Below, in pieces: positions 1,915 to 62,017 of a stretch of 64,000 bases of DNA (the first letter of the stretch is position 1; each line of letters begins with the position of its first letter). The notes under the pieces are model-generated. The model did no database searches, was not told where the DNA came from, and was given only the letters and a program-made list of their open reading frames with translations. The position numbers and the translations under genes were made by a program. This DNA comes from Bremia lactucae (taxonomy: Eukaryota > Oomycota > Peronosporomycetes > Peronosporales > Peronosporaceae). The stretch lies in contig NW_027152195.1 in assembly GCF_004359215.1 (NCBI RefSeq), positions 378,282-442,281 on the forward strand, in the 5' to 3' direction.

Positions 1915-1947
1915 GATCGCCACTCCTATCGGGCGCCGCCTGCACTG

Positions 1948-3059: not shown

Positions 3060-3178
3060 CTTTGGCGCCGTGTATGAGAACACAGGTCGCTACAGTAAGT
3101 GAGGGAAGTAGTGGCGCGTTAAGCAGCTTGCAGTGCCTCCCTTCTCTTTGACGAATTTTAAGAAGTAGATTCTTTCTT

Positions 3179-3189
3179 AAGGGGGGGGG
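3179..3189 (+). other. Polypurine tract of copy A1
   Basis: AAG followed by a run of G (nine Gs in total) directly before the LTR start, the expected position and composition of a plus-strand primer. The matching C-rich tract sits at 22741-22750 in copy A2 (opposite strand), and a G-rich tract at 61478-61485 in A4. This fixes the element orientation as plus and shows that the ORF at 2122-3059 is antisense. Confidence 0.7.
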
Positions 3190-3721: not shown

Positions 3722-4278
3722 CACGGACCATCAGCGACTGGGCGGTATTTGTAAACCCGATGGAGCTGCATCTATGAGCGCATAAGAAGTTCTTAAAATT
3801 TATTTGATCATATTCGACGCGCTCAATGTCGCTAAAATCGACACCATGATACACTTTTGCTTGTGAGTCAACACTTGAGCTCGTCTTGCTATTGTTGAAA
3901 GGCAAGCTTCAAAGTGATGAAGTTACAAAGTCAGTTGTGTGCAAATCTCAACAGACCTGATTTAGAGCCAAAGGCTCGCTCTCTAGTTGTCAATGTAAAG
4001 ACATTTAAGGGAAAAGAGGGAGAAAACCTCCCTTATGTTACGACAAAAATCAATTTTAAAATAAAGCAGCATTGAGTCAAAATTTTATCTTAAATATGAA
4101 TAAAACTTTATTAAAAGAGAATATTGAAGTGGTACGCGTTCTATTTTTGGTTATCGTATTTACGCCGAACGACTGCCGTGAAGTTTCGTAGCAAGCTCGA
4201 GGATAATGAAATAATAATACTCTCTTTTGCCTCTTTTTTCGTGTCAACTAGTTGGTACGTTCCATTCTACTTTTAACA
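3722..4278. other. Decayed repeat sequence with gypsy gag scrap and copia LTR end
   Basis: No host gene seen. A minus-strand open frame of 62 codons at 3717-3905 has no recognisable domain. A gag fragment lies at 3947-4075. The last part, ending in ttttaaca before the primer-binding site at 4279, is probably the end of the copia 5' LTR; its left border could not be placed. Confidence 0.4.
3947..4075 (+). pseudogene. Gypsy gag fragment
   Basis: 43 codons reading LNRPDLEPKARSLVV and VKTFKGKEGENLP before a stop. This resembles the start of the retrotransposon gag domain of oomycete gypsy elements, where a K-x-F-x-G-x-E motif precedes the folded region. It is too short for a firm assignment and is not in frame with anything nearby. 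Confidence 0.4.
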
Positions 4279-16480: not shown

Positions 16481-16540
16481 AACACGGTTAGGAAATGTCA
16501 TTAGTGGTATGCAGCAAGGGTTTGTACGTGGACGACAGAT

Positions 16541-18865
16541 GTGAAAACGGTGATGATGATGATAGCCATACTCGAGACTGCGGAGGACGATCCGGTGCAG
16601 ATCGTAGGGATGAGTCACGCAATTTACTGTTGGACTTTGCAAAGCGTACGACACGATGTCTCGGGAATTCCTGTTTGTAGCGCTCCCCCGTTCAGCTTTT
16701 CTTCGGCCTTTGCTTTATTGATCCGCAAACTTCACGTCGGCAGAACAGAACAATTCGATGTCAACGGGGAGCTTAAGCAACCGCAGGACGTGGTATCCGG
16801 GATCCGTCAAGGGTGTCCGCTCACTCCATTGTTCTTCCTGATTGCGGCGGAAGTCCTCGCAGTAGCGATCCAGCACGACGACCGAAATACCAGCATCACA
16901 CTAACGCAAGTGAGATGGGGCAAACATAAGTTTTCGGCGTTTGTGGACAACTCCACGGTTTTTCTACACGAGGCGCGCCAATTGCTACAGGCGCTCCACA
17001 TCGTGCAGCGGTTTAGCCGGCTATCGGGCTTAATTGTGCAATCGACGAAAAGCCACGTCATCTTTCTGAACACTGCAGTTAATCTCGCAACGTTTCATGA
17101 GGTGCATTTCCTCCAGCACGGGAACACGGTGCGGTACCTTGGCTATTCCGTAGAAGCTGGTCCCCTCACCGACGTGAATTGGTCCGCGCGTATTCGTAAC
17201 ATTGAGCAGCGTTTAGCTATTTCGACTCAGCTCGCGGCCAAAGTAGAGACATGGGTACTGCTTCTCAATGTCATCATGCTGCCGTCTATGCTCTATATAG
17301 CGTCTATATTTGAGACACCGTTGTGGGCTAGGCGACAGCGATTGAACTTGCAGAAGCAGTTCTAGTGGCGTCACTCCACAGATATAGCGTCCGGTCGTCA
17401 CAAGATCTTCTCAGCACTTTTATGCAGATCAAAACAAGCTGGTAGGGTAGGCTGGCCTCAACTTTTAGTGCGTGCAAAGTTAAAGGTTAAAACACGCAAT
17501 GCTTTAGCTCATCCAACGCCACGATATACACTCTATGGCTTGGCGGGCTTGGCAATTTCGTGGAGCAAGACCGGATGAATGGCTGACGTCTTACCGCGTC
17601 TAGCTTCCAGGAAGACATATTCGGATACCTAAACAGCACCTTACGTTTCTGCTCAGTCCGTGTTTACTGCCGGTTCGGCTTGAGGGAGCACAAGAGAGGG
17701 AAAGAATGAGGCAGCGCTAGACAACCTAAAATGGGGGGGTCGCTGGGTAACACCCGAGGATTGGGTCGTAGAGATTCCCAACCCGTTCTACCTCCGATCA
17801 TGAAGATGTCGCCGACTGAGAAAGCCTCCTGGCCCACGTACTCCTGGGACAAAAATCCGTGGATACAAACTGTCGGTGCACTTTTGACGATTGACACATA
17901 CGTCAAAATTCGGCCATGTGCGATTGCTGCCCTGAATGTGCATCGCATTGGGGACAAACGCACTCTTTCGTGATTACGACGACGGGAGCAACGTTGTATC
18001 GCCAAGCCATGCTCCGACGCTGGGGTCTCGCAATTCTGCTTGGATATAGAAGAATATCTACGTGTTCAGCCGGACGTTAAGCCGCGCATCCGCCGAGATT
18101 GACCCGCGAATACGACTGATTATATATCGCACCTTGTGGCACCGCGAAACGGGGCTGGGATCTGAACCCGGCGGGAGCAGCCAGATCAATCTGGAGCAAG
18201 AAAGCAATGGCACTATTGGCATCTCGCAGCGACCAACAGAGAGGATTTGTCCACGACACCCGACAGTCAGCGGCTGCATAGGCCCCACACCGCGGATGGT
18301 ATCGTATTCTATGCTCATCCGCTCCTTCACGGGTTCCCATGGAGCGTTTACGACTCCGTTGCGAACAAACACGTTTTCTTCGATCTCAAGAAACTACCGC
18401 TCATGAGATACAGAGGTTCCGACTATGCATTGGCTTCGACTGTGCAGATCCTTCAGGACTCCTAGCGGGACACCGCCTGGCACGCCGCACCATTACAACA
18501 ACTAACCCACGACGTGTGGGCCCATCGAAACGTACTCACGAAGTACCAAGTCTGGGTCGCGTACCGAAGCGCAATGAAGTAGCTCAATCAGGGATGGACG
18601 GCTGACAACAGCTGCCGCAAGCGGCCGTGCTATTGCGGAGAGAAGTGGAAACGGCACACATCTTTTGGACGTGACCAAGCGCGCAAGCCTGTCAGTAGCG
18701 TCTGCGTTACTCGACTTTTGATGCAACGCATCAGGGCGATAATCCAGCACGAGAACTTGTCTATTGAGCGAAGCGTCATCGTCTTCTGGGCAACCGGCAT
18801 GCGGCAACGTCGCGCTATTGGAAAGTGGGAGCTCGGTCGAGCCGACACCCACCTTAAGGGGGCGC
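16541..18865 (+). pseudogene. LINE (non-LTR) retrotransposon, 3' half
   Basis: The 274-codon frame at 16541-17365 holds non-LTR RT motifs: VSGIRQGCPLTPLFFLIAAE (motif B region) and KFSAFVDNSTVFL, where FVDN replaces the usual F/Y-A/V-DD, so one catalytic Asp is lost. SRLSGLIVQSTKSHVIFLN follows. The ORF then breaks, but the C-terminal region is readable: HSTDIASGRHKIFSALLC, FPWSVYDSVANKHVFFDLKK (18247-18465) and the Cys/His segment RKRPCYCGEKWKRH near 18610-18655. 5'-truncated, as is usual for LINEs. It ends at the family A LTR. Confidence 0.75.
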
Positions 18866-22146: not shown

Positions 22147-22226
22147 ATAGGAAATAATACAAATAATTTCTCTTACGGGAAATAACATTTATGAAACAGG
22201 ACACCCGAGATTAATCCTTCCTAAGG

Positions 22227-22740
22227 TGTAGGCGGGCACGTCGTAATGCGTCCACGCTACACACCCTAGCACAGCGAGGGAGCGATTTGACCAGCTTCTT
22301 TTGCGTGCAGTGAGGTAGTTGCGGTGGGCGCGTTAGCGTCCACACCCAACGCACTAAATACTCTGGTTAGGTGTCGTCACGGGAGCGGTAATCCGGCTCC
22401 TCGTGCGCCTTTACCAAGTAGGAAGTAGTTTACAGACTGATTAATATTTAATAGAATTTAATATAAATACCTAAATATTCCAATCAAAATGTCAAGATAA
22501 AACTTAATATGTATTGCGAGCATATCTTTCTAGATATCTCGCGTAACGGATGACGCTAGCCGTCATCCCTACTAATGTGAATGCACCCATGTGCATCACA
22601 TACACAAGGGTTGGTCACAAATGTGAAGCACACCCGAGTGGTGGTCTGATTACTTTATTTAAGTAAATGACCATCCTGTTGAGTACACCAAGGTACTTAA
22701 CGGGGATTGTGTAACACTAAAGCAACTTTAGCCCGTTGCA
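22227..22740 (-). repeat. 3' LTR of A2
   Basis: 514 bp, TGTAGGCGGGC to CCCGTTGCA as written. Contains a stem GGATGACG/CGTCATCC near 22548-22568. Confidence 0.9.
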
Positions 22741-22750
22741 CCCCCCCTTA
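22741..22750 (-). other. Polypurine tract of A2
   Basis: CCCCCCCTTA on the plus strand, that is TAAGGGGGGG on the element strand, directly before the 3' LTR. Confidence 0.7.
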
Positions 22751-22866
22751 AGGAACGAATTTCGTTTTAAATTCGTCGAAGAGGAGCGAGGAACTGCGAG
22801 CAGGTTTATCCCCGCTATTTCACCTAATCACTCTAGCGACCTGTGTTCACATACACGACGCCAAAG

Positions 22867-23720
22867 ATGCCACCGAAAAGGGGCCACGTTGGTGGGTCGT
22901 CTGCGAAGACGCCCACTCAACCTCAAACTAAGCGCACACGCCGCGTTAACTCGCCGGCTGCGTCCAATGCCTTAGTCGAAACGCCGACAGCTACTGCTGC
23001 TGTCGTGTTAACGGGGCTAAACGATTCATCCCACTTTGCAATTGAGAATGCTAATCCGTCGCTCATTGTCGACTACAATGAGTCGACACTGTTGCCGTCA
23101 CCTCATAGTAGTGATGCGAACAACGAGCTCATGAGGAAGGATAATGGCGCATTATTGCCCATCCAAACTTCTCTTATGGCTCACAACATGGAGACAGCAG
23201 CATTTGCGAATGCTGTCTCGTCGTCTGCACTGGAAAGCGCAGCGACAGGTAATGGGAGCGCTGGCCATAAAGGCGCAGCCACTTCTCCGTTGGGCATAAC
23301 CGCAACGCCTTATGCTCAAACCATAATCAGTAAAGATTCTGACATAGAAGATTCGGAGCCTAAAGCTCCGCCGACGAGAAGTGAACGTGCTCAGTCGGTG
23401 TCACAAGCCAGTCGTTTTGAACGTGGCTATGTGACGGGTGGGGTGGTATACCAAAGATATCCCCTCCATCTAAATGGCCTCATTTAAACGGGCCAAGAGT
23501 GTAGCTCCTAGAGCGCGCTCTTCTAGACGCACATAATTGTTATGGCGTCTTTAAATTATGGAGGGCTCAGGGAAAATCGCTTGGGCGTATTTTTCCGATC
23601 CCGGTCGTGTTGCGTTCAAATGAAACGCCCGACCAATGCGAGGCAGAATTCCTGCGCCGCATTGATCCGCATTCCGATGCGATAAAATAGCGGCTGCAGC
23701 GAATTGATGCGTTTTTCAAC
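22867..23720 (+). pseudogene. Antisense ORF (aORF) of family A, copy A2
   Basis: Best preserved copy of the N-terminal part. From the ATG at 22867 it is open for 206 codons to 23487: MPPKRGHVGGSSAKTPTQ, KRTRRVNSPAAS, a Ser/Ala/Asn-rich middle, then DSDIEDSEPKAPPTRSERAQ. After the stop, other frames give WRAQGKSLGRIFP and VVLRSNETPDQ, EAEFLRRIDPHSDA. It is cut near 23710 by the internal deletion, where it joins RT. The basic start and acidic patch suggest a nuclear or nucleic-acid-binding protein, but this is inference. It is antisense to the element; its 5' end is about 125 nt from the 3' LTR. Confidence 0.7.
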
Positions 23721-24175
23721 CCTTGTGGCATCACAAGCCACTCCCAAAGCATACCGCTTGGGATGCTTACTGCCGTTTTGGCTACATCGGACTGGTCTTT
23801 CTATTGCTGTCGGGAAGGGGGCTACTCATCGTCGCTGCGTACAAAAGTGTATCTCATGAGTACCTGATAGTAGCCATCCTTCAAATCCAACGCGAAAAGA
23901 TAGTTGACTTACCCATGGAGTTCAACAAGACATCTCTCCGCGGGATTGGCGTTTGCGCCGGTATGGTCACCGTGTTCAGCATTTTGTAAGCATGAACCAC
24001 GCGCCATCCACCTGTGACTTTACGCACACAAAAGGTCGGGCTGCAGTGAGGCGATTTGCTCTCACGCACATGTCCCGCATTGGCTCGCTTGTCGAAGAAT
24101 TAATCGATATACTCGACTTGTTCTTTCAAGAGCGGCCATTGCCTGGTCACACAATACTGGTGCCAGGTTCGAGGT
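23711..24175 (-). pseudogene. Reverse transcriptase start of A2
   Basis: Minus-strand RT motifs: VRESKSPHCSPTFCVRKV, GGWRVVHAYKMLN, IPAQTPIPRRDVLL (23881-24069) and MLWEWLVMPQGLKNA at 23710-23752. The next codons come from the antisense ORF, so the deletion joins RT motif 4 to 2.7 kb or so further downstream. The catalytic YxDD region is lost. Confidence 0.75.
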
Positions 24176-25373
24176 CTATCTCGTGCCCGATGCCCCTATC
24201 TGCTGGAAGGCGGCTCGGCACTTCTTCTGGGAACACATCGCGATGTTCCACATATTTTCAATGAACGGACTGTCTCTCAAGGCATCCCAGCCTTGAGCAG
24301 CGAATTGCTTCTTTTTGTCCGCTTCTAGGACGCTCTCGTCCATTGTGGACGACGAGCTACAGTCCACCAAGTTCTCTTCTGGAACTGGTGTGACTATTTC
24401 GTGGATTTTTCCTTCCTTTAATTCGGCAAGGAGCAGATCCCGCGACATCTTCGGGAGATTTTCTATCTTCTCGGCAGATTTAAAGACTTGCCGGAGCACC
24501 TCAACTGAGGATGCCTCCAAAATTTTGTATTTGACGGCCTCGAACACCTCGGTCAAAGGCCCGTCCTCTTTATTAGAGACAGATCCAAAGGCACTCGTTT
24601 AGACGTGCCTTTGATCGTCTTAATCTGTCGCGTACTCGCTCTTCGAGTCACCACGACCTTTTTCTGGGAAGCGGGTGCCGTTGCACTCCTGGCTAACGCA
24701 CCCTTTCCAACCGCACTAGGCTCTAGGCACTGTGCCGGTTTATGCGACGCATGACTTCCTGTCAGATCGCCGTCTACTGCCTTAGGCTCTCGGCTCTGTG
24801 CAGGACATTCGGACGCATGACTTCTTGTCATCGTCCTTTTCACCACCCCAGTCTCCATGAGCTGGGCAGGAATTGGTGACGTTTGACATCCCGTCAACCC
24901 ACCCTCAACTGTAATTGACACGACATCAGCTGCATACGCCTCTCGCAGGAGCACATCCTTTCCGGTGTCCGGCGTAGAGTTCGCAACTGTGCGTGTACGC
25001 CAGTCAATCCTTGGTTGGTACTTAGCCAACCATGGCATGCCTAGGATGACTTTCCATACCTAGCACTGTGAACTTCTCTCTACAAGAGAAGTCACAAAAG
25101 CTGAAGGCGAGTTCAACCTGAACTCCCTCAGACTTAACGAGCGCGCCGTTCGCTAAACGAAGGTCGCATCTTCTCGCTTGCCATCCTGGCAAAGCGACTC
25201 AAGATCGCCAGTCTCTTTCTTAGAGCCGCGAGTTCCACAAAATCTTGTGATGCACCCGAATCCACTAGGAGAGTCATCACCTGGTCATACCCTCGTACAT
25301 GAGCGCCATAGACCAGCAGGGTTGAGGTCCGAAATTTCAAGACCTCAGGGACTATGCTACCCATTCGTTCCAC
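24176..25373 (-). pseudogene. Protease and linker region of A2
   Basis: Protease active site LLVDSGASQDFVEL in the frame at 25134-25373. A frameshift follows, then the protease end MPWLAKYQPRIDW (25038). The linker 24553-25038 has an imperfect repeat (SHASECPAQSREPKAV, SHASHKPAQCLEPSAV). The frame at 24176-24556 (126 codons, EVFEAVKYKILEASSVEVLR) leads to RT. Two frameshifts separate these pieces. In the live element the protease would mature gag-pol. Confidence 0.7.
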
Positions 25374-25472
25374 AACTCTGAACTTAGGGGTAGTTCAGAG
25401 TCCACGTCAGTAAGGCATCCCGCCCCTACTGCGCTCCTGCATTTCCCAACCCCTCAGTGGTCGATGCAAAAC

Positions 25473-26507
25473 TCATGCGTCTCGCACGCTGGTTCTTGCC
25501 ATCGCCCTTTGGGAAGGGATCCTCTTGCTGGGCATCTTCGCCCCAGCAGGGACCCTGGCATAGCAACGAGCCATCACATGGCCCCGCTTGCCGCATTTAA
25601 AACAGACAACGTCTGCATTGCCCAACTCCATGGGAGTGGCATCTGACCTCTCGGCCGACGACTTATACCAAGCTATCGCCGAGGCACCGTTGTAGGATTG
25701 CTCCTCAACCAAGGCAATTTGGATTGCCTCTTCCATAATCGACGGCACCGTTCTGAAAAGGGCCTGTCGCGATAGGCCATGCCGTAGTCCGGTCATAAAC
25801 GAAGGCACCTTAATGTGCATCGGAATCAGACCTACGGTAATGGACGTCGACAGCGAGCGCATCTCTTGCACATAATCTAGCAGAGATCGCTTCGCCTGTC
25901 GCGCTCCAAAGAAGCGCGCCTGAAGCAACACTTCGTTGTTCGGCGGCTGATACATGGCGCAAATCTTTTCCTTAAAGATCGCCCATGTAGGGAACGCCTT
26001 AGCGTCCGCCATAAGCGCCGAGTAAGCCCACTCTGAGGCCTTACCGCGTAGATGCGACATGGCGTAGGACACCATCCGGCTGTCGTCCTCGATGAGCTGG
26101 GCGACACCCCATTGCTCCACGGCCAAAAGCCAGTGGACAATCGTGTGCGCCGCAGTTCCATCGAACTTGGGCGGGTTCATCCGAGTGGGCCTCGGCTGAT
26201 GCGGCCGGGCAGAGAGCATCTCAACAGTCCTGTTGAGAGCCTCGCTCCGAGCCTGCTCATGCCTCAGCTCATCCTGAGTCTGAGTGACAGACTCTGCCGC
26301 AGCATGGCCCTGTGCCTCGGACGCGGCCCTCCGCTCTACGAGCACGAATGCCTCAAACTGCTCCAACTGAGCAACATGTTGCTCAGGAGGACTGCTCAGG
26401 AGCCTGGCCATGGCTTGTTCACCAAGTCTCTGCGCCATAAGCCCTGCCACCTCCCGATTATGTTCGGAGAGGTGGAGGAAATAAGCCCAATCAATATTGA
26501 GGCTCAT
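25473..26507 (-). CDS. Gag of family A (A2), intact ORF
   Basis: 344 codons without a stop. The start chosen is the ATG at 26507 (MSLNIDWAYFLHLSEH). The frame is open up to 26591, but the extra 28 codons run into the LTR. Residues about 35-115 look coiled-coil (LEQFEAFVLVERRAASEAQ, DELRHEQARSEALNRTVEML). A retrotransposon gag domain follows (FDGTAAHTIVHWLLAVEQWG, AMYQPPNNEVLLQARFFGAR). A CCHC zinc knuckle lies at about 305-318 (CFKCGKRGHVMARC). It would bind and package element RNA. It is the only complete retroelement ORF in the window and could assist related copies in trans. Confidence 0.8.
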   Translation of the reverse strand: MSLNIDWAYFLHLSEHNREVAGLMAQRLGEQAMARLLSSPPEQHVAQLEQFEAFVLVERRAASEAQGHAAAESVTQTQDELRHEQARSEALNRTVEMLSARPHQPRPTRMNPPKFDGTAAHTIVHWLLAVEQWGVAQLIEDDSRMVSYAMSHLRGKASEWAYSALMADAKAFPTWAIFKEKICAMYQPPNNEVLLQARFFGARQAKRSLLDYVQEMRSLSTSITVGLIPMHIKVPSFMTGLRHGLSRQALFRTVPSIMEEAIQIALVEEQSYNGASAIAWYKSSAERSDATPMELGNADVVCFKCGKRGHVMARCYARVPAGAKMPSKRIPSQRAMARTSVRDA

Positions 26508-26562
26508 CCTCACGTACACACGCAGAGATGCGGGTCGTGGAAGGATTTCAAGTGCTTTTAAG

Positions 26563-27094
26563 TGTAGGCGGGCACGTCGAAATGCGGCCACGCTTTACTT
26601 AAACACACACCCTAGCACAGCGAGGAAGCGGTTTAACCAGCTTCTCTTGCGTGCAGTGAGGTAGTTGCGGTGGGCGCGTTAGCGAACTCACCCAACGCAC
26701 TAAGTAATTCTGGTTAAGTGTCGTCACGGGAGCGGTAATCCGGCACCTCGTGCGCACTTACCAAGTAGGAAGTAGTTTTCAGACTGATTTATATTTAATG
26801 GAATTAAATATAAATACCCATTTTTACCAATCAAAATGTCATCTCTATAGATATCACTTATATGTATTGGGAGCATATCTTTCTCGATATCTCGCGTAAC
26901 GGATGAAGCTGGGCGTCATCACTCCTAATGTGATGCACCCATGTGCATCACATGCAAAAGGGTTGGTCGCAAATGTGAACCACACCCGAGTGCTGAGTCT
27001 AATTACTTCAATTAAGTAATTGACCATCCCCTTTAGTACACCAAGTGTATTTAACGGGGACTGTGTAACGTTAGGGCAACTTTAGCCCGTTACA
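26563..27094 (-). repeat. 5' LTR of A2
   Basis: 532 bp, TGTAGGCGGGC to CCCGTTACA as written. On the element strand it begins TG and forms a foldback at 27064-27094 (arm TGTAACG). No primer-binding site starting TGG is visible right after its inner end. Confidence 0.9.
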
Positions 27095-48786: not shown

Positions 48787-49020
48787 AAAAGTGCACTTGA
48801 TGGCAAAATGCAAGGTAACTATTTAAGGCCCTTCGTTCGAAAACATTATGCTACTTTAAGCCAATCATCACTGTAGCAATTTTTTAGAAGCTACTGACGA
48901 TATCTGCTGACGTCATCTCCTGACGTCATCTGCTGACGTCATCCTCATGGCGTTACACTACGACGTCATTATCGCTATTAAATTAGTACTCTTGCGAGAC
49001 TCGACATGCTCTTTGTAACA
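48787..49020 (-). repeat. Copia LTR (F)
   Basis: Probable LTR on the minus strand starting TGTTACAAAG at 49020. Similar in layout to the LTR of copia G. It contains the TGACGTCA triplet (48908-48941). Borders are approximate. Confidence 0.45.
48908..48946. promoter_or_regulatory. Three TGACGTCA sites in a 13-bp tandem repeat
   Basis: TGACGTCA starts at 48908, 48921 and 48934, exactly 13 bp apart (unit TGACGTCATCTSC). Likely bZIP/CREB-type enhancer of the copia LTR; binding is inferred from the motif. Confidence 0.55.
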
Positions 49021-49023
49021 TAG

Positions 49024-49200
49024 CACATTTTGCTAGTGCCGATAACAGTACTAGCCAGCCTACACTGATTACAGTAAAGGTGGGCTCCTCGATTACTTCA
49101 CATACACGACGTGCAGAGGGAGGTCTAAGAATCTTAGTAGTCTTAGCTAGTAAGGGCACTCCCTCCTCCTCAACAGTCACTTTAATGACTGATATAGAGT
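49024..49200 (-). repeat. Family D 3' LTR remnant
   Basis: Matches 55857-56000 (TTTGCTAGT, GATTACAGT, CTCGATTACTTC, ACACGACGT). It adjoins the copia F LTR on its left, so the rest was lost or replaced. Confidence 0.5.
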
Positions 49201-49273
49201 GACAGAGAGTACTATTATGTGTCTGTAAATTAGGACTTGTTGGCTCTATTTCAATTCCAACTTTTAATTGCGC

Positions 49274-50190
49274 ATGGTTTCGAAACCCGTGCGCGTAGTC
49301 TGTAAAGCCGCAAAGCTGGCACCTGCACGGCTCAGTGCAGTTGTAAGCGATAAAAATGTTTCAGTAGACGCTAATACGTCTACTGTGGGGAGTGCTTCAC
49401 CTATAATCCTATTTGAGGTGAATGGTACAAGCCACCTGGTATTTCCATTACAGATGACTGGGCCGAGTTGGCGTTTCATCGTATTTTAGGGAAAGAACGG
49501 ATTATATCATCGCCCGACTGGGCCGAGTTGGCGTCATCGCCCGACTCAGTGGCAACTGTTAAGACCTCGGATCGACCTGGGCCACGTCCGTTTTATTTAC
49601 GGATTCTAACGTGACAACCAAAGAGGTGTTGCCGAAGTTTTTTTTTTTCGTCAGACCTCTTTGATGCGGGGTCATCTTGTGATGGCTCCATGGACGACGA
49701 TAACTCGGGTGATGTCAGAATGCATCACTAGGAACGAAGTGATCGTAAAGGTCACTGCAATAAGCATACTACTGGTGATGCTATTATGCATCACCAGGGA
49801 CGGAGTGATTCTAATGACTACTCCGAGATTAATGCTAGCGTTAACGTTAACATGAACCAACGGGAGGGACCGCAATGTTTCGAGGTTCTCCCCGAAGTGA
49901 AGCTCTAGTTACCCTCTAAGGGCAACTTAACGCGCTTGTCTGGTATGACCAATGATCGATACCAATTTCCGTTATTCGACTCATCCAGGCTTCACAAGCC
50001 TGGTGAGGATGACATCGATGGTAATTATGTCACTCCTTTGTTCTAGGCTTGGGAAGCATTTGTACACAATGTGCAAAGCATAGGCCGCGAGGCCAGGCAT
50101 GACAAACTGAATGCTATCGGTGAGCGGCTCGAAAATCAGACCGTAGTCGGTGTGCACTACAAGCTGCAACGTCTGTCTTGCGAGGCAAGG
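49274..50190 (+). pseudogene. Possible antisense ORF of family D
   Basis: Plus-strand readings from an ATG at 49274 (MVSKPVRVVCKAAKLAPAR, basic), then DGSMDDDNSGDVRMHH (acidic), NREGPQ-like, RLHKPGEDDIDGNYVTPLF and AWEAFVHNVQSIGREARHDK with LNAIGERLENQTVVGV. It stops near 50175, before the chromodomain. The position matches the antisense ORFs of families A and B, but several stops interrupt it and no clear shared motif was found. Low confidence that it is homologous. Confidence 0.35.
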
Positions 50191-50299
50191 TCATGCCCAT
50201 AAGGAGTGCAAACTCTCTTAAGAGGATGCTCATCTCTTGTGAGATGTGCGAACGGATTGAGAACCTCTAATTCTTTTACGAGCGCGGGAAGTGCTTGTT

Positions 50300-50490
50300 C
50301 TCTGAAGGACTCTCTGTCGAGGAGGATGGGTCTCGTCAAACTGTCGAACAAGACCCGAAACATATCCGTCATCATTTTGAAACGAGGTTGCCAGCTTTCA
50401 TGCGGAGGTGGATACCCTCGCCATCGAACAGGTAACTCGTTAGAACCCCTTTCACTCCACGGTGATTCAAGAAGCGTTCAACTAGGAAAC
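50300..50490 (-). pseudogene. Chromodomain of family D pol
   Basis: SGEKRFLVERFLNHRGV in one frame, then, after a shift, LPVRWRGYPPPHESWQPRFK, the RWRGYP..ESWEP core of a chromodomain (Q in place of E). This shows that pol runs to about 50.3 kb on the minus strand. Confidence 0.6.
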
Positions 50491-50899
50491 GCTTTTCACC
50501 ACTCGAATCCGTCAATTAATGTGGAGGGGATGTAAAATTGGTTTTGCCTCATTCGCCAAATCCGATTGAACACCGTGACTTGGATCACGTCCTCCACTAT
50601 GTACGAACGATCCCGTCGTCGCGACTTAGCGATGACGGCCGATGTCGATGGTGTTTCTCGTGGTCAGTTGAAAAATTGTGCGCAAGTATCAGTTTATAAA
50701 CTGGTGTTCAAATGGACACGTCAGTCCCTTCAAAACGAGCTGGTGACAGCTCGTCAGAAGCCTTCGTCCTTAAAGGATGTAGTGAAACGTCTAATTTGTG
50801 ACAGCCAGACTCTGTCCCCAGACTATCCTGCTTTGGCTTGGGACCGTCAGGCTTTGGTAGACACCTTAGACCGGTGGGATTCGGATTCGGAACCGGAAG

Positions 50900-52158
50900 A
50901 AGCCTCGTATCGATGGTACGGGCGGCGACATAAAACGTAGGATGCGTACGCATCCACGAAGCAGGTTGATCGTGTACGCATTGCCTTGGCGGCAACGTGT
51001 ACTCATCCATTTTACTCTTTCGTTTTTGTCAGAGTTCCGTTTCTGTCGGTCCACCGCATCCGCACGAATCCTGTACGGAATGGGCCACTGCTTTTTAAGC
51101 CAGCAGAAACTCTCCGCAGACTCGATTTTGTTTTTGTCTTCAGTGCGACCGGTGCGCACTGCGGATATGTCATCCTTCTTATCAGTAAGAGCATTATTGT
51201 TCTCGCTATTATTATTGTTTTTGATGCTAGTATATTAGCATCGTTAATAAAGTCAGTAATAGCCTTATCGCTATATACCACTTCATTGTTTATTAAATCC
51301 ACATTGGTATCCTGCGCATTGCCCGAGAGCCAATGCGTGATGAGCAAGAGCTCATTGCTCAAGCGAGCCCTCAACCTTTGAATGAGTGTTACTCTTAAAC
51401 AAGGTGGATATACGTGGATGGCGTAAGCCATTCACAAAAAATGGTGTATGCTTTGTAGAAGTATACACTGAATTGTTGGTGGCAAATTCTGCCATCAGCA
51501 AGAACTCGCTCCAGATCGTAAAAGTGGACGTATCCACTATGCATCTCTTCGAGGATACGATTTGCACGTTCTGTCTGACCATCTGTTTCAGGATGTTCAG
51601 AAGCTCACAGTTTCAGCTGTGTTCCAAATGATTTGAACACAGTTTGCCAAAACTCAGTCGTAAATCTGGGGTCTCGATCTAAGACCAGTTCACAGGATAA
51701 CCCACGGAGTCAAAGTATTGTGTCAATGAAGACACGAGCACAGCCTTTTTGGCCGTAATCGACTCCCGGACTGCAGCAAGATGTACCATCTTCTGAAATG
51801 GTCAAGAAACACAAGATTACTGGTTTTCTTGTGATCGTCTTCGGGAAATTCGAAGACGAAGTTCATAGAAACGGACTGCCAATACTCTGCCGGAACAGCC
51901 AGAAGTTAGGACGGACCACGGTGTGAAGCACTGGGCTTCACCCGTTGACAACTTCACAAGAACGTATGTACTTGCGGACGAACTCATTCTGGCGTGACCA
52001 GTAGAAGCGCGAATTATCGTGAGATAGGTCATCTCACGTCCACGATGCCCACTTATTGGTGTACCGTGGCACTCGTACATGATGCGTAAACGAAAATCAT
52101 TATGGATGGGGATGACGTCACGAGGTCTGTCGCCAGTAATGACTGTGCAATACAGCAA
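50900..52158 (-). pseudogene. Integrase of family D
   Basis: Zinc-finger histidines in MYECHGTPISGHRGREMT (51817-52158). The first-Asp region is SVSMNFVFEFPED (about 51830-51880, Asp to Asn). The Glu motif HPETDGQTERANRILEEMHS lies at about 51530-51600. LLMAEFATNNSVYTSTKHTP and FFVNGLRHPRI follow (51352-51582), and the C-terminal RQGNAYTINLLRG lies near 50990. Frameshifted. Confidence 0.7.
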
Positions 52159-52412
52159 ACCGTTGCGTGTTGTGTATCGATCCGTTGAGGATCATTACAA
52201 TTTCGAAAATCCTTTAAAGGGTTGCTGTGAATGGAATTGTAAGGTAATCAATCAATCTTATAAGAGCCTTATCTTCTTGATAGGCTCTTCTATCGTCGTC
52301 AAGTAATGCAGACGACGGAACACTTATTGTTGCAAAAGTGGGCATATCCTCACTATTGTTTTGCGCGCAGCCGGCACAAAATTGGGCCGGCGCGAAATGG
52401 CATCAGCGGTGG

Positions 52413-53758
52413 TCATGGTTTATATCTCACGCAGAAGTTGCACTTCGCGAAATAAGACAACCATCTCGTCATTCTTTGCGAGAGGTGTGGACTTCTTATG
52501 GCCGTGCGTAAAGACGCATGGTCCGTATAAATAATTAACGGTCTATCTCCCAAGAGATAAACCGTAAACTTAGCCAGTGCATATTTAATGGCATGGAGTT
52601 CCTTGTCATTCACTGGGGAATTGCGTTCAGCTGGTTGAAGCTGACGCAATTATTAGCAGACGACGCGCTCTGCGCCGTCTGTGACATATTGCATTAACTC
52701 ACAGCCGATTGCAGATTCGCTGACATCACAGACCACATGAAATTGTCTGTCTTGGTCCCCAATCGCCAGGATTGGCGATTGTATCAAACTTAGCTTGATA
52801 CTCACAAAGGAACGCTGACAATCAGCGTTCCATGACTACTTTATATTCTTCTTCAACAAAGAAGAGATATGTACTGTCATTTCGGCATACCTGCTTTGTC
52901 ATTTCGGCATACCTGTGGGGGGACTTATGTAAGTACGCCGCTAAGCCGAGAAACTTTCGTAGTCCCTTTACATCGACAAGCACAGGCCACCCGGTGATCA
53001 CCTTCATATTTTCCGGATCAGAACGTACATCGTGGTTACCCACGATGCACCCAAGAATGGTGGTTCGCTTGCAGCGAATTTACTGAGATTTGCATACAAC
53101 TTATGCTTACGCATAAGTGTAAGAACCTTTTAGACATGGGTACGATGTACTTCAACATCCGACTTTCCGTTTATGACTCTGCAATAAATAAAGACGTCAT
53201 CATAGTAACTCGGCTCGAATCTCGCCCCGATCTCAACAGATTGGTTACATTTCTGTTGAATGTTGCAGGGGCATTACTAAGCCCCTGTGGCATAACTAGG
53301 CACTCCCACAGCATTCCGATTAGGTTGCTTACTGCTGTGAACGGGATATCCTGTTCAAGCATAAAAACTCTGAAAATATCCATCTATGAGATCCATTGAC
53401 GAAACGATGGTACTTTGACCAACCATCAATATTTACGTCTTTTACTGGTATTGGCGTTTGAGCTAGTACCGTTGCAGCATTCAACTAATTGAATACGTTC
53501 ACAATCCGCCACTCTCCGGTGCTTCACGCACACAGAAGGTCGGAAAGCTATGTAAGAAGGTGACTTCTCGAAATGGTCCGTCGCTAAGCGATCGGCCAAG
53601 AATTTGTCGATCGCTAATACTTGTTGACGAGGCAGTGGCCACTTCTTAATGGCGCAGTATTTCGAACCTGGAATCAGGTCGATTTTGTGTCGTGTGCCGT
53701 TATCCTTAGGCAACTCGTACGGTACGGATTCAGGAAATACATTCTTAAATCCGATCAA
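52413..53758 (-). pseudogene. Reverse transcriptase and RNase H of family D
   Basis: RT entry KIDLIPGSKYCAIKKWPLPR (53426-53758). Palm IPFTAVSNLIGMLWECLVMP and QGLSNAPATFNR (53171-53383). Catalytic YYDDV in a shifted frame at 53193-53207. The connection PFLGCIVGNHDVRSDPENMK and FLGLAAYLHK (52822-53043) contains a 19-bp direct duplication (52875-52913). RNase H reads NDKELHAIKYALAKFTVYLL and IYTDHASLRTA (52413-52649). YDD and the RNase H TDH remain, but the frame is broken in at least five places. Confidence 0.8.
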
Positions 53759-53764
53759 ATCCTT

Positions 53765-54660
53765 TTATAAAGAATTTGTCCTCAAAGACTCCCAGGATTG
53801 AAATGTAAAACGTTCAATCCGAGTCTTCTCATTGAGGACACTTTTGTTCATCGATGAGCTGCTGACAACCCGTTCGTTCTCAGGAATACTGTTGCCGACC
53901 GAATATCGACCACGTATTGGCATCTGTGGCAAGTAAGATCTGCTAGACTTTACGACCACGCAGATCAAATATCGCGCTAGTAGAATAAGTGAATAAGCTC
54001 CTATACTTAAGCAGCTTTTACTAAGATGTTTAATGTCTCAGTTTCCTCTTTGGAACTTACTTTCAAAGGTACCTGGAAACCTGTGACCACAGGTTTCTGG
54101 ATTATTATTCCCGCAGAATCTTGGGGACTTCTTCCTTCAATTTATAGGGAGTTTCCTTCCCAATTGCCTCTAGCTGTGATTGCGCAATCACAGCGAGATC
54201 TTCTATTATCGACTCTCCAGTCGATCTAGGACTTTTGCACTGTCACTTACAGACAGGCAATTGGAACTTTCTAGGAAGTGATTTCTAAGCAAGCATCCTT
54301 CTTTTGTACCACGCAACTTATTCGAGTGGTCGAACTTCAACGCTGCCTGTGATTGTGCGCAGCCGTCGGCATCTAGCTCCACAGTTTGATGGGTTGTCAC
54401 ACTGAGGTATTGTGCAGTCGTGCAAATGACCGAACCACAAGTGATACCATCGCACTCACTCGTGTGACATCCACACGCTTGTGGACGCTCCAAAAAGGCG
54501 TATATCAGATGACCATCTAATGAACAATAGGCAGGCAACGTCACGGCTTGATGCTGCCAGTTTATGCATGGCTCATACTTTCTGAGCCATGGAAATCCAA
54601 GGATGACATCAAATTTGTCATTTAAATCCAGTATAATAAAATCATCATCATACCGTTTCC
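53765..54660 (-). pseudogene. Protease end and linker of family D
   Basis: PWLRKYEPWINWQH-like protease end near 54550-54600, ITCGSVICTTAQYLSVTTHQ in the frame 54206-54544, then the frame 53765-53968 leading to RT. The active-site DSG was not found. Confidence 0.5.
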
Positions 54661-54731
54661 CATTTATAATTTATCAGTACAAACTACACGTTTCTTTACT
54701 GTTGGAGAAGCGCCTGTTGCTGGGCGCACTC

Positions 54732-55520
54732 TCAGCTTCGTAGCGGGAGGTCGATCGTTTCGCTAAGTGTTTCTAGGCACTGGGCGTAGGCACTGCACTC
54801 AAAGGTGTATGGTCCGTCTTTTGGCAACGATTGCATTTTTGCAATCGTTTGTAACTTCAAGAGCGAGGTTTTTAGCTCTCTACATACGAGAGGTCCATAG
54901 GTTCTGGACTCCCTTTTCTTGTCGTCTCGGAAGCGATAAGCTCCAGAGTGGACGAAAGCCTGTATAAGGCTGAAGTCCTCCTGTTCCGATACAGAGATCG
55001 ATTGGTCTAGCGTCTGTAGTTCAAGAGCGGAACAGGTGAGACTTGACAGGGCCGTCTGCAAAAACTTTATAAACACATTCACCTGTGTTTGTTCATCTAT
55101 TGGATGAATCAAGTTACAATTACAAGGTATCTTGTTTGTTAGGCATAAGCGTGAAGATCACGCGAGCTCGGCTCGAGCTCTGAATTCGGAACATGGCGGC
55201 ACAAATGTTTGCCTGAGTTGTGTCTTAACGACCTGATACGACCAACAAATCAATATCGTGAACCTTGACCTACGTCCCAGATTGTCACGTCCGGCTAAGT
55301 TGGACATGCCAAATTTCACTTTGTCACATCGTCATTGATGCGGCGAGCTTCAATGGCGTCATCTAATTCGACGAATCATCTTAAAAGGATATCGCCTTTG
55401 ACTGCTTTAAACTTAGAGACTTCTATCCATAAGTTTTCGGGTCGACGCGGAAGCGTCGGGCCGCTAGCAGCATGTAAATCCTGCTGCCTCAACAGTTCTA
55501 ACTGTTAGGTCTCCTGTCCT
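54732..55520 (-). pseudogene. Gag of family D
   Basis: Frame 54732-55112 (QTQVNVFIKFLQTALSSLTC, SEQEDFSLIQAFVHSG) fits the gag C-terminal region. 55241-55500 has scattered gag residues that match 13.1-13.6 kb (LVEG, DDAIEARRINDD-like, KVKFGMSN-like). Heavily decayed; no zinc knuckle seen. Confidence 0.5.
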
Positions 55521-55844
55521 CTTAACACCTCTGCATGTTAAGAGTCTTGTTAGTATAGCAAAACTACTTTTTCTTGGGCCTTGTCGAGTTCATGTTAAAT
55601 GAACTCAGCTATAGCCGCATGTTGCTCGTCTCTTCGTTGAGTGAACAACATGGCGCTAACTGCTGGCCCGCCTACGGCCGAATTCATGCTTTCGATCGCT
55701 CTCCATTCAAGGTCACATATTTGAGTGATTTTTACGCGTTGCGTGATAGCCTTGTTGGGGTACTTAAAAGCATTCTCCTTCTTTATCTAACATGTCTAAT
55801 TTGATGGAACTTGCGTAGGCCTTTAAACGGACGAAGAAGTGCTA

Positions 55845-56300
55845 CCAGGTGCAACAAGGCACCTTTTGCTAGTACTGATAACAGCACTAGTCACCTACAC
55901 TCATTACAGTGAAGGCGGGGTGCCTCGATTACTTCTCGTACACGACGTTCAACGGGAGGTTCCAAGAAGCTAACATGTCTTAGCTACAAGAGGAAATTTC
56001 TAAGGCTTTACAATAAAGAAAAAGTAAAACTGTATTAATACATTAAGTTGATTAAAAACGATCTTTTATTTACTGGCTTTAATATATTAAAAACTAACTA
56101 TGCAATGCGGCTCCATGCGCGACGCCTAATCGTGTCTTGTAACGAATGGCGGAGTTGATTTAAACTTTAATTAACATGTAATAAGTCAAATTAATAAAGA
56201 TAATAGTTTGTACTAAATAATTTATTTCCTCTCATAGCAAATAATATTTATCATTCCTCGTGTAGGTAATAACAATTATGTAACGGGACACCCCGTTACA
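55845..56300 (-). repeat. Family D 5' LTR
   Basis: On the element strand it begins TGTAACGGG with a 9-bp foldback (56279-56300) and ends near TTGTTGCA at about 55845. Two bases later TGGTAGCACTTC could be the primer-binding site. Matched by 13600-13935 and 20790-22206. Confidence 0.6.
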
Positions 56301-57285: not shown

Positions 57286-57304
57286 ACACGGCGCCTGACA
57301 TGCC

Positions 57305-58210
57305 ACTTAAGAGGGGCAAAGATGACGGGTCGTCTGCGACGACACCCACAGAACCACGCACGAAGCGCACGCGCAGCGATAAACGCCGCCGTCGCCTAGT
57401 GCCTCAGTTGCAAAGCCGATAGCCACTAAAGCTGCTGTCGCGCTCGACTTAATGATTCAACCATTTGCGCAGTAAAGATGTAGAACTGTCGCTCATTGTT
57501 GACTACATGAGTCAACACCGTTGCCATCACCTCATAGTAGTGGTGAGCGCAGCGAGCTAATGGGGATGGGCGATGGCGCTGTATTGCCCATCCAAGCTTT
57601 ATTCATTGCTCCTAACATGGAGACACCCAACGTTGCGAAGGCCAACTAGCCTATCGTCAACAAAACAACTGGCTCGCCGTCTGCGCTAGCTAGCGCAGCG
57701 ACCATTCATGAGAGCGCTGCGCATAAAGGTGCAGCTGCATCTCATTTGGGCAGAACCACAACACTTACCGTATAGGCCATCATATTCAATGGGTGTGACG
57801 CAGAAGAGCCTGAGCTTAAAGCCCCACCGACGGCACGTGGACATGTCCAGTCGATGTCACAATTAAGCCGTATCGAATGCGGCTATGTGACCACCGATAC
57901 CACCTCCACCCAATGGCCTTATTCGAATCGAACTAGTGCGTTCTCCTAAAGCGCGCTACTCTAGATGCACATAATTATTATGGCTTTTAAAATTCATGGA
58001 AGGTTCAGGGGGAATCACTTGGGCGTGTTAAATCGATCCCGGTCGTGTTGCGTTCGAATGAATTATCCTATCATTACGAAGCGGGATACCTGCGCCGCTT
58101 TCAGCCACATTTTGGTGTGGCGAAACAACGTTTGCAGCGACTTGACTTCGCTCACTTGTGTGTGAGAGAAATCAATGGCGCTACTGTACCCTTTTTTCCT
58201 ATCATCACAC
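57305..58210 (+). pseudogene. Antisense ORF (aORF) of family A, copy A3
   Basis: Starts MPLKRGKDDGSSATTPTEPR with KRTRS (basic). After many shifts, a readable C-terminal part is IPVVLRSNELSYHYEAGYLR, RFQPHFGVAKQRLQRLDFAH, LCVREINGATVPFFPI (58020-58200). Compared with A1 and A2, residue changes such as QYEAEFLRR to HYEAGYLRR are conservative, which points to protein-level selection in the past. Beyond about 58205 the same frame is only a shadow of the chromodomain. Confidence 0.65.
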
Positions 58211-58617
58211 CGCTTCTTGTAGTCCATTCGTACCTAGAGGAGCAACAACTGGTGATCCTTTTCAAAGGCAGACACCAGGCCCGGTACGTCGACATGCAGG
58301 GCGCCGACCGGTTCCCAAGAGTTGAAACGCTTCGGGTATCCTCTCCACTGAACGAGGATTTGAAGCTTCTGCTGCACGGAGCGGTGGGCAATCAATTATC
58401 CAACAAGGAAGCATTGGCTGCCGGCAGCATTTATAAGTGAGCGTGGCGCTCGATAGGAGCAACGATTTTGCACACCTACTCGCGGCAGCCTATCCCGCTT
58501 CTGCTCAGTCGCAGGCATTAAGCTCTGCTGAACGACGGATCGAGGAACTCGAAAATCAAGTCTCGCGACTGACTTCGGATCTCCACGATGTCTGCGCGAA
58601 GGATCGCCAGTGACCAA
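58208..58617 (-). pseudogene. Chromodomain of family A pol (A3)
   Basis: NAAGSQCFLVG, stop, then LIAHRSVQQKLQILVQWRGY, PKRFNSWEPVGALHVDVPGL and VSAFEKDHQLLLL, ending at about 58208. It keeps WRGYP and SWEP, more complete than A1. The upstream linker is readable at 58440-58617 (VPRSVVQQSLMPATEQK). Confidence 0.7.
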
Positions 58618-58883
58618 AGGCTAAAACTTCGACTGGTCCTTTTGGAGAAGCTTATGCGGAAGGATCCGCATAACTCGCGTGATACCCCTCACTTTCCAAG
58701 CCCATATCGCGGTGGGAGGAATTATTTGGCTGGAAGACTATAATCTTCCCCGTCTTTTTCACCCGACCGACGCTCGACTCACAATCAGCGTCACCATTGG
58801 TCTTCTTAGACGAATGAGGGTATGTGATCTCTTCTGAATTAACATTCCATTACAGACGCCTCACGTAAAAGAAGGGTGTGTCT

Positions 58884-59987
58884 TCATATACGGCGGGAGT
58901 GTGAGCCTATAATTAAGGTCTCCAACCTCCTCGACCACCGTAAACGGCCCGATGACACGCGGCAATAATTCCGTAGTACCCTTAGGTAGTATAAAGCTGC
59001 ACTTTTAGGTAGGGTAGCACTGCTTAATAGTACTTTATCTCCCACTCTAGCGTTCATTAATTTTGCGACTATTTTGGTCGCATAATGTTTTTGCTTGTAC
59101 TGTGCGATTGCCATCGCGTCACAACTTTTTGTTTGATGACTAATCGCAAACGAAGCGTTGAGCCTCGCTCACGCTATTAGCATCAAATTCGCCTATGACA
59201 CCGCCGAGAGGCCGGTCATAGGACGTACCTGCCAAAACGAAACTCGTTATCGTTTAGGAGCACAGGCATTTCTTATTGTGACTCCATACTGACCACTGCT
59301 AAACCGGAAGGGTCCTTAGGGCAAGTTTCCGTCGTTGACAAGATACTCTCACGGATCATCGTCATGTTAACAAAACTATGTCACCAAGCGTAGTGAGTGG
59401 CCCTACCCCGCTAAGCCTCAGGCTGCGCACAAACGAGATTATCATTCGAGGATGGCGCACTCCGTTTATATAAAACGGCGTCTCAGCCGTACTGGCGTGG
59501 GCACTGTTATTTATAGAGAACCTTCACGAAGGGCAATTGCTTGCTCCATTCCTTGGGAGTCGCTACCGTGCGCAATACATCCGCCACGACCCGATAGCCT
59601 CGTTCCGTTTAGCCATTGGTCTGGGGATAACCGGCTGTTGACATGTACCTAGCAGCGCAAACACATGACGCAAAAACGCGACGTAAATCGTGGATCCCGA
59701 TCCGATACTATGTATTCGGGCATCCGGTCGGTACACATGATCCAAGAACAAGATAGCTGCATCCTTGCCTGTGATCGTGGTGCTACATGGCGCTAAATGC
59801 ACCGTTTTGCTCAGTCTGTCTACAGAGACGACGAGCCCCGTCCAACCCGTATGATCAGGCGGCATGCCAAACATAAAGTCCAGACTGACCGACTTCCAAC
59901 AATCCGTTGGAATCGACAGCGGCTTCAATGGCGCACTGCTAAACGGTGCAGGCTTTATGCGCTGAGCGAACAAAATTGGCCAACCAT
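58884..59987 (-). pseudogene. Integrase of family A (A3)
   Basis: SVSLDFMFGMPPDHTGWTGL and VVSVDRLSKTVHLAPC (59563-60009 frame) carry the first Asp; FLDHVYRPDARIHSIGSGST covers the next block after a shift. The C-terminal MNARVGDKVLLSSATLPK lies at 58884-59114. Decayed. The first residues of the 60009 frame already belong to A4 sequence. Confidence 0.7.
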
Positions 59988-60055
59988 GTAAAACATAGAT
60001 CACAGGCATTGACGCAGCTCTCTTGTTCTTGGATCATGTTTAACGACTTCACGGG

Positions 60056-61178
60056 ATGCCTGAGTCCATACTATCGGACCGGAATCCACGTCTTACGTCT
60101 GATTTTTGGCCACACGAATTCGAGCTGCTTAATAGCAATCTCCACCTGTTGACCGCAGATCATCCTCAGACCGATGGCCAAACAAAACGTGCCAATTGGG
60201 TCGAGGCGGATGTCTTGCGCACTATAGCGACTCCCAAAGAGTGGAGCAAGCAATTGCCCTTTGTGGAGTTCGCTATAAATAACAGTGTCCACGCCAGTAC
60301 GGGTGAGACACCGTTTTATATTAACGGACTGCGCCATCCTCGGACGCCAGTCTCATTTGTGCGCAGCCCGAGTCTTAGTGGGGAGGGCCCCTCACTATGC
60401 TCGGTGCGAAAGAGGGACATAGTTTCGTCAAAATGACGATGACCATGAGGGTATCATCTCAAAAAAAGAAACTTGCCCTAGTGACCCTGCCAGTTTAGCA
60501 GTGGTCAATAAAACAACGCCTTATGACCGACCTCTTGGCGGTATCATAGGCGAGTTTGATGCTAAAGCGTGAGCGAGGCTCAACGCTTTGTGGATGAGCG
60601 ATTAGCCATCACACGTAAAGTCCGTGACGCAATGGCAAGCGCACAGGACAAGCAAAAAGAATATGCGAAACGAAATGATCGCAAAAATAATGAACGCTTT
60701 AGAGTTGGTAAAAAAGTAACATTAAGTACTGCTACCCTGCCTAAGAATGCAATTTCTGTACAATCTAGAGGTACTACGAAGTTGTTGCCGCGTTTTTTTA
60801 TTGGGCCTTTACGGTGTTAGAATAGGTTGGAGTCCTAAATTATAGGCTCACCCTTCCCCCGTATTTAATGACGCACCCTGTATTTTCCGTGGGTCGTCTG
60901 AAAAGGTTTGTAGATCGAAATGAAGCCACATACCCTCATCCGTCTAAGGAGACCGATGGTGACGCCGGCTGTGAGTCAAGCATCGTTCGGGTGAGGAAGA
61001 CGGTGAAGGCAAAAAGCTATCAGATTCCTCCCTCCACGAACAGGACTTGGAGAGCAAGGAACATCACGCGAGTAACACGGATCCCTCAGCGTTATCCGTT
61101 CGAAAAGGTCCAAGCAAGTCTTCAGGCGTTCATAGCCCTGACGAGCCTTCGCTCGGACATCAACGAGATCCGAGGTCA
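60056..61178 (+). pseudogene. Integrase of family A (A4)
   Basis: ESILSDRNPRLTSDFWPHEF (second Asp as SDRNP), [19 protein letters not shown] (Glu to Lys), then EFAINNSVHASTGETPFYIN, closely matching A1. AQRFVDERLAITRKVRDAMA and KEYAKRNDRKNNERFRVGKK at 60569-60720; HPVFSVGRLKRFVDRNEATY at 60868-60960. Breaks at about 60436, 60568 and 60815. Runs into the gap. Confidence 0.8.
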
Positions 61179-61278
61179 NNNNNNNNNNNNNNNNNNNNNN
61201 NNNNNNNNNNNNNNNNNNNNNNNNNNNNNNNNNNNNNNNNNNNNNNNNNNNNNNNNNNNNNNNNNNNNNNNNNNNNNN
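61179..61278. other. Assembly gap (100 N)
   Basis: Exactly 100 N. The flanks correspond to A1 positions 1812 and 2981, so the real missing sequence is probably about 1.17 kb of family A (chromodomain and most of the antisense ORF). Confidence 0.9.
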
Positions 61279-61357
61279 CGCGGCGCGTATGCTTAGTTTG
61301 AGGTTGAGTGGGCGTCTTCGCAGACGACCCACCAACGTGGCCCCATTTAGGTGGCAT
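61279..61357 (-). pseudogene. Antisense ORF start of family A, copy A4
   Basis: MPPKWGHVGGSSAKTPTQ and KHTRR from the ATG at 61357, cut by the gap. Fourth copy of the same N-terminus. Confidence 0.6.
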
Positions 61358-61490
61358 CTTTAGCGCTGTGTATGAAAACACAGGTCGCTAGAGTGATTAA
61401 GTAAACTAGCGATGCGTAAAGCTGCTCGCAGTTCCTCTCTCCGCTTTGACGAATTATAAAATGTAAATTCGTTTTTAAAGGGGGGTATGG

Positions 61491-62017
61491 TGGAACTGGC
61501 TAAAGTTGCCCTAATGTTACACAGTCCCCGTTAAGTACACTTGGTGTACTTAAGGGGATGGTCAATACTAAATTATAGTAGACCCAACACTCGGGTGTGG
61601 TGCACATTTGTGACCAACCCTTGTGGATGTGATGCACATGTGTGCATTCACATTAGGAGGGATGACGCCCAGCGTCATCCGTTACGCGAGGTATCTAGAA
61701 AGATACGCTCGCAATACATATTAATTGTTATCTATAGAGATAACATTTAATTGGTAAAAATGGGTATTTGTATTTAATTCTATTAAATATTAATCAGTCT
61801 GTAAACAACTCCCTACTTGGTAAGTGCGCACGAGGAGACGGATTGCCGCTCCCGTGACGACACTTAACCAGAGTACTTAGTGTGTTGGGTGAGGTCGCTT
61901 GCGTGCCCACCACAACTATCTCACTGCACGCAAGAGAAGCAGGTTTAACCGCTTCCTCGCTGTGCTAGGTTGTGTGTCTAAGTATAGCGTGGCCGCATTA
62001 CGACGTGCCCGCCTACA
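61491..62017 (+). repeat. Family A 3' LTR (A4)
   Basis: 527 bp, TGGAACTGGC to GCCCGCCTACA. Contains stems at 61660-61680 (arm GGATGACGC) and 61727-61744 (arm GTTATCT). Preceded by the purine tract AAAGGGGGG. Confidence 0.85.

Follow-up and report, generated by a model that had tools for sequence, protein, structure and literature searches.

Hairpins built from short inverted repeats have been described in several systems, each of which resembles in some respect the case that we report here, a broken copy of a Ty3/gypsy-like long terminal repeat (LTR) retrotransposon family, called D below, on the minus strand at 49271-55606 of a 64,000-nucleotide stretch of the Bremia lactucae genome (contig NW_027152195.1, positions 378,282 to 442,281; the whole stretch is the window, and coordinates refer to it unless a locus, numbered with L, is named). 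Template-switch mutations at quasi-palindromes (PMC8794818, PMC8604942) are like D in the homogenisation of arms, in compensated changes and in the inversion of spacers at short inverted repeats. They are described for DNA replication and from scattered sites, whereas in D a whole retroelement family is saturated and the pairing is kept in the transposing lineage. The genome-scale ordered structure of positive-strand RNA viruses (PMC7642675) also has a folding-energy excess along the entire genome, in coding sequence, with consecutive stem-loops; D differs in being a Ty3/gypsy-like retrotransposon with many perfect Watson-Crick stems and no wobble preference on either strand. The coding palindromes of nematomorph mitochondria, for which the authors consider arm conversion through template switching (PMC6649704), are likewise perfect inverted repeats inside functional coding sequence, but they are mitochondrial and reach 284 bp, while the arms in D, a nuclear retroelement, mostly measure 6-11 bp. 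Ty3 and Ty1 (PMC11381356, PMC9503155) are LTR retrotransposons with structured RNA, as D is, and hairpin saturation is not stated in the openings of the abstracts. Among the matches listed for the open-licence PMC literature, no title or abstract opening reports a hairpin-saturated retrotransposon family.

Between 49271 and 55606 we find 17 perfect hairpins with arms of at least 8 bp and loops of at most 8 nt, roughly one per few hundred bases, coding parts included. The mean number in 1000 dinucleotide shuffles of the same interval was 0.77 (maximum 4); an earlier set of 60 such shuffles gave a mean of 0.68 (maximum 5), and 500 order-2 Markov sequences a mean of 0.77 (maximum 4). With identical geometry, there are 3 mirror repeats. 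The hairpin excess in this copy is far beyond chance. A first-pass annotation of the window had counted 15 perfect inverted repeats, among them five with arms of at least 10 bp; the excess stands, also against dinucleotide-shuffled sequence, and the five were found again, but the total is 17.

The hairpins with the longest arms lie at 54173..54194 (arms 11, loop 0, with a paired change, G-C/A-T, relative to L023), 49772..49797 (arms 10, loop 6), 52809..52831 (arms 10, loop 3), 54076..54097 (arms 10, loop 2; one arm differs by two letters from the local majority of the other copies) and 54826..54849 (arms 10, loop 4; similar in L036). Arms of 9 bp are found at 49362..49385 (loop 6), 51835..51859 (loop 7; arms 10 in L023), 52760..52781 (loop 4; arms 10 in L023), 54567..54591 (loop 7; common to L023) and 55519..55544 (loop 8; similar in L023), and arms of 8 bp at 49985..50003 (loop 3), 50735..50754 (loop 4; identical in L023), 50940..50955 (loop 0), 52018..52038 (loop 5), 53028..53047 (loop 4), 53099..53118 (loop 4; kept in L041, L042 and L043) and 55586..55606 (loop 5; arms 9 in L023, and paired changes among the copies). 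A cluster of three hairpins had been described at 52761-52831. We see that 52760-52831 holds the hairpins with arms of 9 and 10 bp, while the third (52781..52801, loop 7) has arms of only 7 bp.

Next, we asked which sequences are rich in hairpins. For counts per class in the window we used arms of at least 8 bp and loops of at most 10 nt, with the D interval set by hand to 49014-56300. The D class has 22 hairpins (2.43/kb; shuffled 0.18). A second gypsy family, G2, which occupies for example 22.2-27.1 and 57-62 kb, has 21 (1.55/kb; shuffled 0.08), and the 41.4 kb outside D and G2 have 9 (0.22/kb; shuffled 0.14). The copies of G2 that we considered lie at 22226-27094, 57286-62017 and 857-3722, and at 1848-6000 of L030. 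In copia the dense pattern is absent, with 1 hairpin over 3.2 kb. D is therefore not the sole hairpin-rich family; the earlier impression that neighbouring host genes and copia elements show no such excess agrees with the copia count and the host genes examined.

We also surveyed ten stretches of 6 kb placed at round coordinates, one of which was mostly N. L034, L036, L039 and L040 carry 9-19 hairpins each and all contain pieces of D, L031 and L032 (mostly G2) carry 5 each, and L033, with pieces of D and G2, carries 2. Two stretches contain genes only: L035 has 2 hairpins (0.85 expected) and L038 has 0 (1.05 expected). L037, which consists of repeats other than D and has 176 bp of weak G2 homology, has 4, where 0.9 are expected. 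The density in D per locus ranges from 0.5/kb (L033) to 9.4/kb (L034). Over 122.9 kb of D from 24 loci, the excess is larger for longer arms (with loops of at most 20 nt, 8-fold for arms of 8 bp, 17-fold for 9 and 23-fold for 10) and is concentrated at arms of 6-11 bp and loops of 0-15 nt, where it peaks at 4 nt; for loops of 16-30 nt it is about twofold. As a side observation, the pair that closes the loop is 5'A-T3' in 164 and 5'T-A3' in 76 hairpins of D, about twice as often with related copies counted, and this is symmetric for both strands.

To see whether the hairpins are shared between copies or private to each, we compared the copies with one another. L001-L008, which are parts of later loci, were excluded from all copy comparisons, L020, L021 and L022 (100%, 97.9% and 99.9% like L023) from the later ones and L029 from several; alignments under 80-200 bases were dropped, as were those above 97-98% identity for the later covariation and spacer-inversion comparisons, and majority tests required five or six other copies. 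When placed on a single D copy, the hairpins occupy 161 distinct sites over 10.85 kb; at 98 of these the hairpin is perfect in two or more loci, at 63 in a single locus. For 196 of 329 testable hairpins, the local majority of the other copies has a perfect stem; for 90 the majority stem contains one mismatch, and for 43 two or more. Since the majority stem is perfect in 196 of the 329 cases, most testable hairpins appear to be inherited and older than the divergence of the copies; the hairpins are thus mostly shared.

The pattern of changes gives further information. Alleles found in one locus are equally common everywhere (per site 0.637 in stems, 0.653 in loops, 0.658 outside), whereas alleles found in at least three loci reach 0.110 per site in stems (95% 0.083-0.138), 0.167 in matched pseudo-stems and 0.219 in loops. 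Shared changes are thus depleted in stems and enriched in loops, whereas private ones are even; we conclude that the transposing lineage maintains the pairing and that each inserted copy loses it by neutral decay. Where the local majority is perfect (59 sites), the rate of derived letters amounts to 10.3% for stems, compared with 12.3% for flanks and 13.8% for loops. Double changes seen in at least two loci are paired in 20 and unpaired in 3 cases in stems, with 113:173 in the null (p 1e-5). Our earliest covariation count had no excess (its null overlapped other hairpins), and the later counts have a modest one. For example, the arms CAAGTTCAT...ATGAACTTG are changed to CGAATTCAT...ATGAATTCG in L023 (given on the strand opposite to the listing), and the same hairpin reads CGAGTTTAT...ATAAACTCG in L018. 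In the open frame of L043, a paired change from T-A to C-G amounts to one synonymous and one non-synonymous replacement. In summary, the hairpins are an inherited property of the Ty3/gypsy-like retrotransposon family D, which is partly common to G2.

Hairpins are present in both coding and non-coding parts of D, and several open frames have far more of them than synonymous-codon shuffles. A frame of 296 codons in L034 (881-1768) holds 11 hairpins against 0.35 in the shuffles, and the reverse-transcriptase frame of L041 holds 11 against 0.61 with arms of at least 7 bp and 4 against 0.20 with arms of at least 8; at the latter threshold, the open frames of L042 and L043 have 5 against 0.26 and 7 against 0.30. 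In the L023 copy, several open stretches are not clearly above the shuffles, and the longest (606 bases) has 0 hairpins.

How did the hairpins arise? We tentatively favour the idea that fold-back template switching of the complementary DNA (cDNA) during reverse transcription writes them and makes them perfect again. The single-stranded cDNA would fold back on itself and the polymerase would copy the opposite arm, such that quasi-palindromes are perfected at the DNA level; small loops would have an advantage, as the nascent strand has to reach the sequence next to it, and coding constraint would limit but not prevent the writing of hairpins. We prefer this idea because two gypsy families show the excess and the examined genes do not, because only the transposing lineage maintains the pairing, and because the geometry is that of short-loop fold-back copying, with mismatches that have no strand preference.

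Direct traces of template switching can be found as well. In comparisons between copies, 20 of 3634 loops clearly fit the inverted spacer better, against 2 of 8315 control windows (trivial self-matches account for 2 of the 14 distinct rows, and the copies are related). Between intact arms, the spacer is inverted from GTTGA to TCAAC in L010, alone among 15 aligned rows, from GAA to TTC in L015, alone among 31 rows, and from CGAATGAG to CTCATTCG in L040 among 13 rows, with L033 perhaps similar. Since these are three clean, polarised spacer inversions, template switching does occur at the hairpins of D, and we infer that it made most of them. Private rewriting of arms with at least 4 derived letters in 8 matches the reverse complement 7 times, the reverse once, the complement 0 times and the direct sequence 4 times.

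On the other hand, a number of observations weigh against fold-back switching as the source. With at least 3 derived letters, the excess of arm rewriting is weak (reverse-complement 15, reverse 6, complement 3, direct 16). Template switching predicts that two repairs private to a hairpin fall on one arm, and we count the same arm in 11 and different arms in 12 cases. Per pair, stems do not have more compensated alleles in at least three loci (6 of 715 stem pairs) than the null (34 of 4303), so the pairing signal is mostly an avoidance of unpaired changes. Each clean inversion is private to one copy and may therefore post-date insertion and involve host polymerases. Copia also uses a reverse transcriptase, yet has no dense hairpins; L033 contains 2.1 kb of D with a single hairpin; and the coding parts of G2 combine high folding energy with few perfect hairpins, which fits selection better. 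Template switching had been suggested as a cause by the first-pass annotation, and it gains from the three inversions and the small excess of arm rewriting, but not from the hairpins with two changes, which lack the one-arm pattern.

The other suggested cause was selection for a structured RNA genome, which we regard as quite possible and only slightly less likely. A genome-wide structure of the RNA (or cDNA) might shield the element from small-RNA silencing or nucleases, or aid packaging, and would be kept in the transposing lineage. To quantify the structure, we compared the folding energy of 350-nt pieces with that of shuffles. In four D copies it is 21-29% below dinucleotide-matched shuffles throughout, on either strand, as in genome-scale ordered RNA structure. 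Short open-frame stretches have a still larger excess, namely 49-52% in L034 (3 pieces), 40-52% in L041 (2 pieces) and 40-44% in L042 and L043 (2 and 3 pieces). The excess is 19-28% in G2, where the terminal repeats are structured (32-48%) and the coding parts are structured too, and 7-9% in copia; for genes and the stretch at 34-46 kb it lies between -5 and 5%. In coronaviruses, the mean for 350-base fragments is 15% in SARS-CoV-2 and 23.4% in the highest genome, with local peaks above 50% (PMC7642675). The copy-wide means of D thus equal or slightly exceed the highest coronavirus genome mean, and the 40-52% of the short stretches is high yet locally paralleled in coronaviruses, although the shuffling procedures differ in both comparisons.

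Selection is also consistent with the shared changes, which avoid stems and favour loops, and with the paired changes inside single hairpins across copies. In one open frame, non-synonymous changes make up 9 of the 14 derived changes within stems and 60 of the 155 elsewhere, and a subfamily with broken frames, in which a reverse-transcriptase stretch is identical at 14 places, is still hairpin-rich. Upkeep in the lineage and the pattern of G2 would be explained as well.

However, an RNA selected on the sense strand should tolerate G-U over A-C pairs on that strand, and by this yardstick, which is our own, D has no such preference. Among alleles in at least three loci there are 36 G-T and 56 A-C on the sense strand, with 533 and 554 in the null (p 0.08), and shared internal mismatches at the level of sites number 23 and 29, which is not significant. 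Pooled one-mismatch hairpins have sense G-T:A-C ratios of 58:101 and 203:272, a hint of antisense, but the copies are related and the 23:29 at site level carries no significance, so we make no claim of it. The loops in D have no strand-specific excess of A, GNRA-type tetraloops are a minority (GTAA 6, where the commonest loop, TCAC, has 8), there is no consistent sense excess of folding energy in D, and spacer inversions are not predicted by selection. Such a strand-neutral pattern suits a process at the DNA level; strong selection for perfect Watson-Crick stems would look alike. Selection thus agrees with the upkeep of pairing and not with the missing G-U preference on sense RNA. Template switching and selection can act together, and selection is a close rival.

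In some copies the two strands do differ in folding. The antisense strand folds better in three G2 copies (paired differences of 4.3, 2.3 and 2.6 kcal per piece, standard errors 1.15, 0.7 and 1.6) and in two pieces of L041 (9.9 kcal per piece), not in other D copies. Mismatches in G2 hairpins stand at 16 to 15, without antisense preference.

Replication slippage or template switching by the host could in principle act on any neutral DNA, independently of the retroelement cycle. This type of mutation is known for DNA polymerases (PMC8604942, PMC8794818), the clean inversions are each private to a single copy, and L037 has its hairpins without any D. Nevertheless, we consider this explanation improbable: the window outside D and G2 and the gene-only stretches are poor in hairpins, as given above, and the equal rate of private changes in stems and non-stems gives no sign of upkeep after insertion. 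That mobile hairpin elements were inserted many times into the retrotransposon, as scattered hairpins of similar size might suggest, is highly implausible and was rejected for the bulk of them, since no stem 7-mer is common to any two of the 17 window hairpins and, of the 451 hairpins in D-aligned segments, 360 have no insertion relative to the reference copy.

Returning to fold-back switching of cDNA, a more far-reaching version, which we consider speculative and rather unlikely, is that the lineage writes palindromes into itself with each cycle of reverse transcription, that gag and pol thereby become protein-coding chains of hairpins, and that the hairpin-rich genome is in turn protected against degradation or silencing. 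Should the polymerase responsible be that of the retroelement itself, reverse transcription would generate palindromes and so shape genomes in which such elements abound. D has dozens of diverged copies in one genome, with the dead copies as a built-in neutral control, so that the origin of the hairpins by mutation (template switching) or by selection is directly testable. The published assembly of B. lactucae is 115 Mb long, gaps make up 24 Mb of it, and Gypsy accounts for 58.6% (PMC6570648).

By blastn, the homology of the window copy to other loci extends over about 49014-56300 (about 7.3 kb, minus strand), beyond the limits first drawn, and its stop-to-stop frames are interrupted. The family has at least 41 matches in the genome (115.9 Mb assembly, 220 contigs). 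The assignment to Ty3/gypsy follows from gag-pol with an aspartyl protease and RVT_1: the window copy has a protease remnant of pol at 54206..54670 (minus strand; Pfam RVP_2, E 2.4e-5), and its relative L041 matches RVT_1 (E 5.1e-19). The reverse-transcriptase remnant of the window copy (53426..53764, minus strand) has no Pfam match of its own and is placed by the stretch where relatives encode this enzyme. A Pfam search with the gag-like frame P0001 gave no match, self-comparison of 20 loci gave no clear direct LTR pair, and the viral contigs searched with the D reverse-transcriptase segment held no relative. At the L023 locus (ends near C12:2000149 and C12:2010853) the ends carry inverted stretches (about 175 bp, 75%) where direct LTRs are not obvious, and there is another inverted pair of about 490 bp (70%).

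In the subfamily with broken frames (L020, L022, L023 and others), the reverse-transcriptase stretch of 202 residues is 100% identical at 14 places; L020 matches L023 at 100% over 8.9 kb and L022 at 99.9% over 6.7 kb. This near-identity suggests recent copying, in trans or by duplication. Kilobase-scale inversions with matching breakpoints occur within the D copies L013 (3693-3730 and 7384-7558) and L016 (1386 and 4627), and one of the junctions contains a perfect hairpin of 28 bp; we did not count these large inversions as evidence.

An Rfam scan of the window gave 0 matches among 4227 families at the gathering score, and a tRNA scan found nothing. Besides the two gypsy families, the window contains a copia gag and an RVT_1 remnant (16505-17365), which looks LINE-like (long interspersed nuclear element) from its motifs and near which the window hairpin list has no dense hairpins. 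The host genes encode the ribosomal protein S19e, a Nop-domain protein and EMC7.

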